Source of the DNA: Entomomonas asaccharolytica
GTDB taxonomy: Bacteria > Pseudomonadota > Gammaproteobacteria > Pseudomonadales > Pseudomonadaceae
Assembly: GCF_016653615.1 (NCBI RefSeq)
Contig: NZ_CP067393.1
Location: forward strand, 124,001 to 188,000
Direction of reading: 5' to 3'
DNA: 64,000 nucleotides
Shown here piece by piece: positions 5,855-62,734 of the stretch. Within the stretch, counting starts at the first letter, position 1. Each line of letters starts with the position of its first letter. Position numbers and translations under genes: made by a program. The notes beneath the pieces were generated by a model that was not told where the DNA came from, made no database searches, and saw nothing but the letters and a program-made list of their open reading frames with translations.

Positions 5855-7288
5855 TTAGTGTTTAGTTAAATCTGTTAATGCTAAATGCGGTGCAATCATA
5901 TTTTCAGGCTTAAGAATTTCTTCAAGTGTTTCTTCACTGAGTAATTTCTCTTCTCGTACTAACTCTAATACACCTTTGCCAGTTTCTAAAGCGATACGAG
6001 CAATACGCGTTGAGTTTTCATAACCAATATAAGGGTTAAGTGCAGTTACTAAACCAATTGAGTGTTCAACAAGATTTTTACAATGTTCAACGTTGGCTGT
6101 AATGCCTTCAATACAAAGGGTGCGCAACATTTCCATAGCACGACTTAACAGTCTTATAGAGTCAAATGTTTTATAGGCAATCAGTGGTTCCATAACATTT
6201 AATTGTAACTGGCCACCTTCCGCTGCAATTGTTAGTGCTAAATCATTACCAATCACTTCAAATACTACTTGGTTAACTGCTTCAGGAATAACAGGGTTAA
6301 CTTTACCAGGCATAATAGAACTACCAGGTTGTCTTGGTGGTAAGTTAATTTCATTAATACCTGTTCTTGGACCACTTGATAATAATCTTAAGTCATTACA
6401 GATTTTTGATAGCTTGACACCTGTACGTTTTAGCATACCAGACAGTAATACGAAAGCACCCATATCTGAGGTGGCTTCAATTAAGTCAGTAGCAGGTAAT
6501 AAAGGGTGTCCTGTAATACGTGCTAGATGTTGTACCGCTAAGAATTGATAACGAGGGTCGGCATTAATACCTGTACCAATCGCTGTACCGCCAAGATTTA
6601 CTTCACGTAGTAAATCAGGGATTAATAGACGAATGCGGTCGACATCTTCAGTTAGTGTAGTGGCAAAAGCTTTAAACTCTTGGCCAAGTGTCATAGGTAC
6701 AGCATCTTGTAATTGAGTGCGACCCATTTTAATCACATGGGCAAACTCTTCGCCTTTTTGTGCAAAAGAGTCACGTAGTTTACCTAATGCATCTAATAAT
6801 GAATCATAGCCTAATAATAAACCAACACGAATGGCGGTTGGATAGGCATCGTTAGTAGATTGAGCCATATTGACATCATTATTAGGGTGCAAATATTTAT
6901 ATTCACCTTTTTGATGTCCCATTTCTTCTAAGGCAATATTAGCAATGACTTCATTAGCATTCATATTGGTAGAAGTACCTGCACCGCCTTGAATCATATC
7001 TACTAAAAATTGATCATGAAACTCGCCATTGGTGATACGTTCACAGGCTTTAACAATAGCCGCATGTTTTTCATCAGATAAATAACCTAATTCATGATTG
7101 GCTTCTGCAGCAGCCCATTTGACCATGGCTAACGCATTCACTAATTTAGGGAAGTGAGATAAGGTAATGCCTGTGAGTTTAAAGTTGTTAATTGCTCTTA
7201 ATGTTTGAATACCATAATAGGCATCATTAGGTACTTCTAGAGTACCAAGTAAATCTTTTTCAATGCGGACTGATGCAGAATTGGACAT
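5855..7288 (-). CDS. aspA: Aspartate ammonia-lyase (aspartase)
   Basis: Converts L-aspartate to fumarate and ammonia in the cytoplasm, feeding amino-acid carbon into the TCA cycle. At 477 residues it has the family's usual length. The fumarase/aspartase signature [15 protein letters not shown] is present near residue 320, with the conserved GGAGTSTNMNANEV and TNDAYPTAIRVG blocks. Substrate-type features match aspartase rather than FumC; a true fumC is found separately at 33.4-34.8 kb. The gene is divergent from a LysR-type regulator across 143 bases that carry a palindrome, so regulation by that protein is plausible. Confidence 0.96.
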   Translation of the reverse strand: MSNSASVRIEKDLLGTLEVPNDAYYGIQTLRAINNFKLTGITLSHFPKLVNALAMVKWAAAEANHELGYLSDEKHAAIVKACERITNGEFHDQFLVDMIQGGAGTSTNMNANEVIANIALEEMGHQKGEYKYLHPNNDVNMAQSTNDAYPTAIRVGLLLGYDSLLDALGKLRDSFAQKGEEFAHVIKMGRTQLQDAVPMTLGQEFKAFATTLTEDVDRIRLLIPDLLREVNLGGTAIGTGINADPRYQFLAVQHLARITGHPLLPATDLIEATSDMGAFVLLSGMLKRTGVKLSKICNDLRLLSSGPRTGINEINLPPRQPGSSIMPGKVNPVIPEAVNQVVFEVIGNDLALTIAAEGGQLQLNVMEPLIAYKTFDSIRLLSRAMEMLRTLCIEGITANVEHCKNLVEHSIGLVTALNPYIGYENSTRIARIALETGKGVLELVREEKLLSEETLEEILKPENMIAPHLALTDLTKH

Positions 7289-24637: not shown

Positions 24638-24733
24638 TAGAAACAGACTTCCACTAATATTATACTGTCTAGTTAAAATTATAATATCATACCTTTATTA
24701 TGGTCTATTGCGAAGCTTAAAGTGAGAAAACAT

Positions 24734-25138
24734 ATGGTAGAAAATAATGAATTAAGAAAAGCTGGCTTGAAAGTAACCTTACCAAGGGTAAAAATTCTAC
24801 AGCTTTTAGATGCAGCAGAAAACCGTCATATGAGTGCAGAAGATGTTTATAAATCTTTAATGGATTCAGGTGAAGATGTAGGTTTGGCTACAGTTTATCG
24901 GGTTTTAACGCAGTTTGAATCTGCAGGGCTTGTGGTTCGACATAACTTTGATGGTGGACATGCAATATTTGAGTTAGCCGATGGCGATCACCATGATCAT
25001 ATGGTATGTGTAGACTCTGGTGAGGTAATAGAGTTTATCGATAGAGAAATTGAGGAATTACAGCATAAAATTGCTGAGCGTCATGGATTTGATCTCGTAG
25101 ATCATAATCTTGTGTTATATGTTAAAAAGAAAAAATAA
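24734..25138 (+). CDS. fur: Ferric uptake regulator Fur
   Basis: Iron-responsive repressor. The 134 residues hold the winged-helix domain (about 1-82; EDVGLATVYRVLTQFE recognition region) and the metal-binding dimerisation domain (about 83-134; HHDHMVCVDSGEVIEF). The CxxC zinc pairs of E. coli Fur are absent, as in Pseudomonas Fur. The ATG at 24734 gives MVENNELRKAGLKVTLPRV; a GTG at 24722 would add four residues. A near-consensus Fur box in this window (35091-35109) is a likely target. Confidence 0.96.
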   Translation: MVENNELRKAGLKVTLPRVKILQLLDAAENRHMSAEDVYKSLMDSGEDVGLATVYRVLTQFESAGLVVRHNFDGGHAIFELADGDHHDHMVCVDSGEVIEFIDREIEELQHKIAERHGFDLVDHNLVLYVKKKK

Positions 25139-33400: not shown

Positions 33401-34804
33401 TTAGCTTCTATTTAAATTAGTCATCGCTAATGGATCAACCCATTTATCGAAATCTTCTGCTGATACTAGCTTTAATTCTAAAGCGACTTGTTTTAAGCTT
33501 TTGTTTTCTTTATGTGCTGTTTTTGCAATAAGAGCAGCTTTGTCATAACCAACATGTTTATTAAGTGCTGTGACTAGCATTAGATTATTTTCTAAATGCT
33601 TTTTAATAACTGGTAAATTAGGTTCAATACCTACTGCACAATGTTCATTAAACGATAAACAAGCATCAGATAATAGATCAATACTTTCTAATACATTATG
33701 CACCATAACAGGTTTATAAACATTTAATTCAAAATTACCTTGGCTACCTGCAAAGGCCACAGTTGCATCGTTACCAAATACTTGCGCACATACCATGGTT
33801 AAGGCCTCGCATTGGGTAGGGTTTACTTTGCCAGGCATAATAGAAGAACCAGGTTCATTTTCTGGAATAAGGATTTCGCCTATACCACAGCGAGGGCCAC
33901 TGGCTAACCAACGAACATCATTCGCTATTTTTAATAAGGCACCTGCTAAGGTTCTTAATGCAGCAGAAACATTAACTAACGCATCATGAGCCGCTAAAGA
34001 AAAGAATTTATTTTTAGATGAAATAAAAGGATGTCCTGTAAGTTCTGCAATATTGGCAGCACAACGATCGCCAAATTGTGGATGAGCATTTAAACCTGTA
34101 CCAACAGCAGTACCACCAATGGCTAAACTATAAACACCTTGTAGAGTGTTTTTTACAGTATCTAAAGCAAAGTCAATTTGCGCTACCCAGCTACTAATTT
34201 CTTGACCTAATGTTATAGGGGTCGCGTCTTGTAAATGGGTTCTACCTGTTTTAACCACTTCTCTGTATTGTTCACTTTTTTTCTGTAGTGTATCTCTTAA
34301 TTGGCTAACATCAGGGAAAAGTCTATTAAACAACTCTAGCACAACAGCAATATGCATAGCGGTTGGAAATGTATCATTGGAAGATTGGCCACAATTTACA
34401 TGGTCATTGGGATGAACTACTTTTTTATCACCAATTTGCCCACCTAGAATTTCTACCGCACGATTAGCAATGACCTCATTGCCATTCATATTGGATTGAG
34501 TACCAGAGCCCGTTTGAAATACTACAAGGGGAAAGTTATCATTTAATTTACCAGCAATAACATCATCAGCTGCTTTGGCAATGGCATTTGCTATATCGGT
34601 AGGTATTTCACCGAGGTCTCTATTTGCTAAGGCTGCGGATTTTTTTAGAATACCAAATGAGTGAATAATAATAGGGTGCATTTTAAAGCGATCAACACCT
34701 ATTTTAAAATTATGGATAGAGCGTTCGGTTTGTGCTCCCCAATATTTGTCGGCAGGTACATCAATTTCACCCATTGAATCATATTCTTTGCGTATATTAC
34801 TCAT
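33401..34804 (-). CDS. fumC: Class II fumarate hydratase (iron-independent)
   Basis: Converts fumarate to malate in the TCA cycle without an Fe-S cluster. The 467 residues match FumC. Motifs are [18 protein letters not shown] (about 98), the signature [16 protein letters not shown] (about 318), and the catalytic [11 protein letters not shown] (about 139). Paralogous to aspA at 5.9 kb but clearly FumC by N terminus ([21 protein letters not shown]). The class II enzyme spares iron, fitting its position upstream of and divergent from a Fur-controlled sRNA. Confidence 0.96.
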
Positions 34805-35023: not shown

Positions 35024-35088
35024 AATAAATATATTACTTTAGATAATTTAGTTTATTTGAAAGATATATTAATTATTTTAAAAATTAC

Positions 35089-35117
35089 TTGCAAATGATA
35101 ATTATTATCGTTAATAT
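35089..35117 (+). promoter_or_regulatory. Fur-box promoter of the PrrF-like sRNA
   Basis: A -35 element TTGCAA (35089-35094) and a -10 element TAATAT (35112-35117) are 17 bases apart. Overlapping them at 35091-35109 is GCAAATGATAATTATTATC, which by my count matches 16 of 19 positions of the classical Fur box. Iron-loaded Fur bound here would block RNA polymerase, so the downstream RNA should be made under iron limitation. Confidence 0.85.
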
Positions 35118-35123
35118 ATAACC

Positions 35124-35243
35124 AAGTTGATCGCAAGATTAACTGACAAGTCAAAGCGTTCGATCTGCTGTATAAGATTGTTTGGTTTGTCTCCTCATCA
35201 GGCTAATCACGGTTTCTACCCAGCTTTTGCTGGGTATTTTTTT
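35124..35243 (+). ncRNA. prrF: PrrF-like iron-responsive small RNA
   Basis: Predicted sRNA of about 120 nt. Transcription should start near 35124, seven bases past the -10. The 5' end folds at once into an 8-bp stem (35125-35132 with 35137-35144) closed by the GNRA tetraloop GCAA, as in Pseudomonas PrrF RNAs. A largely unpaired, pyrimidine-rich stretch follows, with TTTGTCTCCTCATCAGG and CTAATCACGG (about 35186-35212), which resembles the conserved target-pairing core of PrrF as I remember it. A strong intrinsic terminator ends it. It contains no plausible ORF. PrrF RNAs repress mRNAs for iron-rich proteins with Hfq. Lower certainty attaches to exact ends. Confidence 0.82.
35218..35243 (+). 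terminator. Rho-independent terminator of the PrrF-like sRNA
   Basis: Perfect arms ACCCAGC (35218-35224) and GCTGGGT (35229-35235), loop TTTT, then A and seven T residues. It is 16 bases from the convergent aroE stop. Confidence 0.9.
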
Positions 35244-35259
35244 GTCAATTAATATAGCC

Positions 35260-36081
35260 TTAGTCTCTCATAAGTTGCTGACGAAGAAATTTTAAAACGG
35301 TATCTGTTTTAGGTTGTACGCCTCGCCACAGGGAAAAGGCTTCAGCTGCTTGCTCTACTAACATTCCTAAACCATCCATTGTTTTAGCAGCACCATTTTT
35401 TTTGCCCCATTGGCAAAATACGGTTGGCTCTTTACTGTACATCATGTCATAACAAATAGTTTTTTTAGGTTGAATAAGTTGTGGATTGATATTAGGTAAT
35501 TCATTACTAAGGCTGGCAGAAGTGGCATTAATAATTAAATCAACAGTTTCTGTTATGGTTTCGTAACTATGAGCGCTGATATAGCCTAGATGTTTAGTAA
35601 GCCCAACCAATGTTTCAGCTTTATTTAAGGTGCGGTTGGCTATTAAGAGATGTTGTGGTTGTTCATTGAGGATAGGTTCAATAACACCACGCGCAGCACC
35701 ACCTGCACCTAATAATAAGATGGTTTTACCTTTTAGATTAATACCAGCATTTTTTAGGTCACGTACTAATCCAACACCATCTGTATTATCACCAAGCAAA
35801 GAACCATCGGCTAACTTCTTTAAGGTATTAACTGCCCCTGCTAACTGCGCTCTGGGTGTTAGCTCATTGGCTATGTGATAAGCTTCTTGTTTAAAGGGAA
35901 CAGTAATATTACAACCTTGACCTATTTCAAAAAACTTTTTAAGCGCTGTTGCAAAGCCATCGATAGGTGCAAGAATCGGCTCATAAATTATTTTTTGATT
36001 GGTCTGTTGTGCGAATAATCGATGAATAATAGGAGATTTACTGTGAGCTATAGGGTTACCGAAAACAGCATAGTGGTCCAT
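35260..36081 (-). CDS. aroE: Shikimate dehydrogenase
   Basis: NADPH-dependent reduction of 3-dehydroshikimate in the shikimate pathway. The 273 residues match AroE. The substrate-binding N terminus is [20 protein letters not shown]. The catalytic Lys is in [11 protein letters not shown] (near 66) and the Asp in [13 protein letters not shown] (near 103). The nucleotide-binding loop is [13 protein letters not shown] and the dinucleotide 2'-phosphate site is ANRTLNKAE. It is 19 bases after hemF on the same strand; hemF-aroE is the pseudomonad order. Confidence 0.96.
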
Positions 36082-36100: not shown

Positions 36101-37027
<927 letters not shown>

Positions 37028-62360: not shown

Positions 62361-62392
62361 CATTTTTTATAAATAAGCGTATTATAAAAAAG

Positions 62393-62534
62393 TCTTCAGG
62401 GCGGGGCGAAATTCCCCACCGGCGGTAAATCTATCACAGATAAGCCCGCGAGCGCTTTGTTATGATCGTTGTAAGAAAGGCAGCTGATTTGGTTAAAATC
62501 CAAAGCCGACGGTTACAGTCCGGATGAAAGAAGA
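62393..62534 (+). promoter_or_regulatory. FMN riboswitch (RFN element) upstream of ribB
   Basis: The conserved RFN core is intact: GGGCGGGGCGAAATTCCCC, then ACCGGCGGTAAAT, AGCCCGCGAGCG, and near the 3' side AAAGCCGACGGTTACAGTCC followed by GGATGAAAG. The outer P1 stem is TCTTC (62393-62397) with GAAGA (62530-62534). FMN binding lowers ribB expression. A TATTAT -10 element at 62380-62385 would start the transcript just before it. Confidence 0.97.
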
Positions 62535-62734
62535 TGCATCTCAGCAATATTAGATTCATTGCTAAACAATTTTAGATGAGGTGAATGCATAGTTGTTCAT
62601 CAGCATATAAAGGTGTAGAGCAATAGATACAGTTGTTGTTCTGTAGCTTTTGGCTGTGGGAACAATAGTTCTTATAGTCATGCCCTGAAACGTTTATCGC
62701 CCATTTTTAATATTATTTGCGAGGAGCGTTTCAA
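62535..62734 (+). promoter_or_regulatory. ribB leader: riboswitch expression platform
   Basis: Two hundred bases separate the aptamer from ribB. Proximal pairing: AGCAAT (62543-62548) with ATTGCT, nested in TGCATC...GATG/ATGCA. Distal pairing: GAAACG (62687-62692) with CGTTTC (62727-62732) and CGC (62698-62700) with GCG (62719-62721). The distal stem places the ribosome-binding site GAGGAG (62721-62726) within its 3' arm, so control of translation start is likely. No strong intrinsic terminator is seen. Confidence 0.6.

Follow-up and report, generated by a model that had tools for sequence, protein, structure and literature searches.

The 64,000-nt stretch of the Entomomonas asaccharolytica genome analysed here (the window) carries a gene for the small RNA PrrF, known to shut down iron-using enzymes under iron scarcity. 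With a probability of about 95%, we consider it to be one of two PrrF genes in Entomomonas, repressed by Fur and yielding at low iron an RNA that pairs with mRNAs of iron proteins. Homology, predicted structure and operator sequence identify the locus as genuinely belonging to the PrrF family. The relevant features of the window are the following:

24722–25138, + strand: fur, gene of the presumed repressor (Pfam PF01475, 149.9 bits)
33401–34804, − strand: fumC (class II fumarase), divergent neighbour (NCBIfam TIGR00979, 745.6 bits)
35089–35117, + strand: sigma-70 promoter, −35 TTGCAA at 35089–35094, 17-base spacer, −10 TAATAT at 35112–35117 (sequence)
35091–35110, + strand: Fur box over the promoter spacer (sequence, pattern scan, alignment with the Fur-box columns of 31 PrrF loci)
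35124–35243, + strand: PrrF sRNA gene, transcript of about 120 nt (RF00444 match; start placed from the −10 element)
35125–35144, + strand: 5′ stem-loop, 8 bp, GCAA (GNRA) tetraloop (fold; covariation)
35145–35191, + strand: middle hairpin with an 11-bp outer stem, GACAAGUCAAA / UUUGGUUUGUC (fold; alternative within 0.8 kcal/mol of the best)
35190–35215, + strand: conserved mRNA-pairing core TCTCCTCATCAGGCTAATCACGGTTT (consensus identity; nearly invariant across the order)
35217–35243, + strand: intrinsic terminator, 8-bp stem, UUUU loop, T tail (fold; covariation)
35260–36081, − strand: aroE (shikimate dehydrogenase), convergent neighbour (NCBIfam NF001310, 391.9 bits)

The first-pass annotation had proposed a PrrF homologue from a low-GC relative of Pseudomonas and named a covariance-model search as a check. 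This search returns a full-length match to the Rfam PrrF model RF00444: positions 35084–35244 (+) align to model positions 1–150 of 150 with 87.8 bits, both in a relaxed scan and in a whole-genome search (E 1.3e-15 genome-wide). The host also fits, as the window has 36% GC and the genome belongs to the genus Entomomonas of the Pseudomonadaceae. In an Rfam scan of the whole window at curated cut-offs, the locus is absent from the listed matches; its score falls 2.2 bits short of the RF00444 gathering cut-off of 90, making the missing annotation of this copy plausible. That cut-off is a curation limit and no biological feature, and Entomomonas scores lie close to it because of the AT-rich stems. 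As the model spans the promoter region, the RNA body was scored separately; it alone retains 67.3 bits (E 1.4e-11), so the match does not depend on the Fur box. The segment UCUCCUCAUCAGGCUAAUCACGGUUU is letter-identical to the family consensus, and the conserved pairing core UCUCCUCAUCAGGCUAAUCACGG is likewise identical in the window copy.

According to the literature, RyhB of E. coli and the RNAs NrrF, ArrF, HrrF, BrrF and IsrR act in a similar way, being repressed by Fur and themselves repressing iron proteins. Since RyhB-, NrrF- and BrrF-like RNAs share a Fur box and a terminator, and part of the RF00444 score stems from the promoter region within the model, the locus could belong to a different iron-responsive family resembling PrrF in these two elements alone. 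We regard this as very unlikely, given the promoter-free score, a core identical to that of PrrF and the scores of the best other Rfam families, at least 20 bits short of their own cut-offs. Covariance models run on the region matched no member but PrrF among the Fur-repressed iron-sparing RNAs. Membership in another iron sRNA family was rejected on scores of 30 of 50 bits for RF02278, 17.9 of 49.5 for anti-hemB and 17.6 of 111 for SorY. PrrF and RyhB are described as lacking sequence homology (PMC4211561).

The RNA is predicted to fold at −37.6 kcal/mol (z = −4.8), and 0 of 200 shuffled sequences folded as well. The fold bears out the 8-bp 5′ stem with its GCAA loop and the strong intrinsic terminator, both noticed at first reading; the terminator stem occupies 35217–35236 and is followed by TTTTTTT. 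In an alignment of 31 PrrF loci (7 from Entomomonas and 24 others) both stems show compensatory change, with both sides altered at 5/8 pairs of the 5′ stem and at 6/8 pairs of the terminator stem. None of 500 shuffles reached any of the five covariation measures, and when the partners were slid by 1–3 columns as a control, pairing fell from 88% to 20–39%.

Between these stems the first-pass annotation had described an unpaired CU-rich middle. The description holds for the core, which is largely single-stranded and includes CTCATCAGGCTAATCAC at 35194–35210 (its 16-base part TCATCAGGCTAATCAC occurs exactly once in the window), but not for 35145–35191, which can fold into the 11-bp hairpin. This hairpin is possible in all Entomomonas copies; in the window copy, the best full-length fold pairs the middle slightly differently and is 0.8 kcal/mol better. 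The third pair of the hairpin is C-G in 7/7 Entomomonas loci and U-A in 24/24 others.

Upstream, the proposed promoter is present as claimed (TTGCAA, 17 bases, TAATAT), and the count of 16 matching Fur-box positions overlapping it was reproduced: the 19-mer at 35091–35109 agrees with the classical Fur box GATAATGATAATCATTATC at 16/19 positions. Measured against the 7-1-7 box TGATAATNATTATCA, 35096–35110 agrees at 14/15 positions, and the box of the sibling copy at 15/15. Two Fur-box-like sites were observed in the 64-kb window against 1.05 expected, a count which alone is not significant, and the other site falls within a gene. The weight of the box therefore is its position, over a promoter beside an sRNA and at the place typical of the PrrF family. 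A pattern scan found no Fur box of its own for fumC.

An accidental pairing of a promoter-like with a terminator-like sequence in an AT-rich intergenic region would agree with the chance frequency of Fur-box-like sites in the window and with promoter-like sites in the region being no commoner than in shuffles. It leaves unexplained the fold z-score of −4.8, the covariance-model E-value of about 1e-15, and the covariation and conservation across the family; on the model match and the covariation we rejected this explanation, whose probability is negligible.

The locus therefore is best read as PrrF, and it shares with PrrF1/PrrF2 of Pseudomonas the Fur box over the promoter, the GNRA 5′ stem-loop, the middle hairpin, the terminator, the identical UCUCCUCAUCAGGCUAAUCACGGUUU core and the presence of two sibling copies. 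It differs in the 11-bp outer stem of the middle hairpin with C-G instead of U-A as its third pair, and in promoter spacing. In the alignment, the −35 and −10 hexamers of Entomomonas are shifted downstream relative to the Fur box, whereas TTGAC and the −10 element of other Pseudomonadaceae lie 6–7 columns further upstream; Entomomonas has 6–7 extra bases between the Fur box and the 5′ stem, and the hexamers are displaced about equally.

The source genome also encodes the expected partners, computed here alongside the homology, structure, operator sequence, second copy and conserved complementarity: hfq is present, and the PF01475 match of fur spans window 24758–25120 (G000:C1:148758-149120). 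By analogy with the known PrrF family, from which we infer iron regulation, Fur binding, use of Hfq and target repression, iron-loaded Fur would occupy the box over the promoter and keep transcription off. At low iron Fur would depart and the RNA of about 120 nt would be made. Its single-stranded core, probably with Hfq, would then pair with the ribosome-binding region or the first codons of iron-protein mRNAs (predicted partners are sodB, sdhC, leuC and perhaps acnB), so that translation would be blocked and iron spared.

PrrF targets reported in P. aeruginosa include sodB (PMC13104616) and sdhCDAB, acnA and acnB (PMC2851614). Complementarity to the core was ranked against a background of 370 gene starts, taken from 20 sampled stretches of the source genome and from the window. 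A gapped duplex score separated the targets weakly; because this first score allowed long loops, a local complementarity score was adopted instead. Five iron enzymes were scored, and leuC surfaced unplanned through the aconitase family search. Under the local score leuC has the top complementarity of all 370 starts, sdhC falls in the top 1.1% and sodB in the top 5.4%; acnB stands at 12.7% (1.6% in genome G001 of the genus). No complementary site was found for acnA, and no consistent one for the ferritins. The combined rank of the five iron enzymes was reached by 0 of 60 shuffled cores, and the start-region complementarity of sodB, sdhC and leuC is alike in three species. In all three, UUAACCUGAUGAAAAUGGAGAA or a close form stands just 5′ of the sodB start, while the sequence further upstream diverges; the predicted duplex joins CCUGAUGA with UCAUCAGG of the core, the Shine-Dalgarno GGAGA facing UCUCC. 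Single target calls are uncertain, since unselected genes score as high as sdhC. One of these is hemF (window 36101–37012, −), two genes from PrrF and second-best of the 370 starts (28.5), which may be chance. An ungapped 14-mer search tolerating at most 2 mismatches found 24 sites outside the two prrF genes, compared with 9 for the reversed pattern, but no iron-protein gene had one of the 24 at its start.

The leuC product is an iron-sulfur enzyme, and leuC may be an unreported PrrF target; no report of a PrrF–leuC link was found in the literature searched, whose coverage is incomplete. The predicted pairing lies over the leuC ribosome-binding site, tentatively suggesting that the Entomomonas regulon took in leucine biosynthesis. 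We hold this to be rather doubtful, as overlap of the site with the Shine-Dalgarno sequence favours chance matches. If true, an insect-gut bacterium would stop leucine synthesis at low iron and rely on the host diet.

The gene had been taken for a single copy, which is wrong. The whole-genome search revealed a second PrrF at 3147821–3147982 on the minus strand (92.4 bits), 93% identical to the window copy over 162 columns. On the single 3.24-Mb contig of this genome, if it is circular, the copies lie about 250 kb apart across the contig ends and on opposite strands, quite unlike a tandem pair some 95 nt apart. Distal siblings are the usual layout outside P. aeruginosa (PMC4211561). PrrH, the heme-responsive read-through RNA of the tandem prrF1–prrF2 locus of P. 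aeruginosa, would use a like promoter, but is not possible in the source genome because its two copies are unlinked.

The lower score of the window copy (87.8 vs 92.4 bits) and its Fur box, one base off perfect where that of the sibling is perfect, would suit a decaying, nonfunctional duplicate, with the copy at 3147821–3147982 (minus) doing the work. This appears improbable considering the near-identity of the copies and the intact core, promoter and terminator of the window copy; in its 5′ stem, moreover, A-U corresponds to an A.C mismatch of the sibling, and G-U to G-C.

Two copies are present in each of the other two complete Entomomonas genomes as well. The copies of strain E2T0 score 98.7 and 93.7 bits, both above 90; this strain is reported to be 88.4% identical to E. 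asaccharolytica F2A (PMC9872594). The source genome and the Entomomonas genome G002 are about 89–92% identical in the stretches compared, close to that figure. The gene order is fumC–PrrF–aroE around the window copy and a 496-aa kinase-like gene, PrrF, uvrA around the second. The incomplete genome G003 shows one copy, between the kinase-like gene and aroE. G001 has two copies 1.3 kb apart between the same two genes; in contrast to the PrrH locus, an opposite-strand gene separates them, and the second is preceded by a remnant of the end of the kinase-like gene. The simplest reading would be that PrrF was duplicated locally and a later rearrangement separated the copies; a duplication-then-movement view is quoted in PMC4211561 and fits this layout.

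The kinase-like gene (L001:1666-3156, −, at the second-copy locus) adjoins a PrrF copy in 4/4 Entomomonas genomes, and a partial match to it stands upstream of PrrF in another family (L046), possibly an old synteny. The window further contains a second fumarase/aspartase-family gene (5861–7276, −), 38% identical to the fumC beside PrrF, and an FMN riboswitch (62388–62539, +; 116.5 bits).

PrrF was found in 4/4 genomes of the genus and in all 139 good-quality genomes of the family, covering 19/19 genera. An order-level search matched 48/295 genomes, of which 35 belong to other families and mostly score lower; a class-wide draw gave no match outside the window's own order, and 14 control genomes gave none. 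A scan of named genomes with the PrrF pattern, which may omit near records, returned no match, and in the corresponding AroE scan the sole match from the genus was a MAG labelled Ventosimonas. Within the Pseudomonadaceae, an insect-gut lineage whose genome is small and AT-rich appears to have retained the whole PrrF circuit. The find is sound but ordinary, its kind being well known; what it adds is small: two unlinked siblings, one of them overlooked at the standard cut-off, and the possible leuC target. The Rfam cut-off hides real members: scores under 90 bits are found for the window copy, both G001 copies, the G003 copy and core-sharing relatives across the order. A lower cut-off, or RF00444 reseeded with these sequences, would make such members annotatable.

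Two further loci, both from outside the window's family, carry several matches each. At one, three weaker PrrF matches lie close together (G248:C8:351500-353700; E 1e-7 to 1e-9), all three missed by a simple search for the core allowing 2 mismatches. At the other, in the same order as the window, five PrrF-like genes stand in a row (G397:C3:1546500-1549900), with cores at about 1148, 1450, 1727, 2004 and 2281 of that locus, the last four spaced by 277 bases. Each gene contains CATCAAGCTAATCACGGTT and is preceded by Fur-box-like sites; for an iron-responsive sRNA, five tandem copies would be an unusual array.
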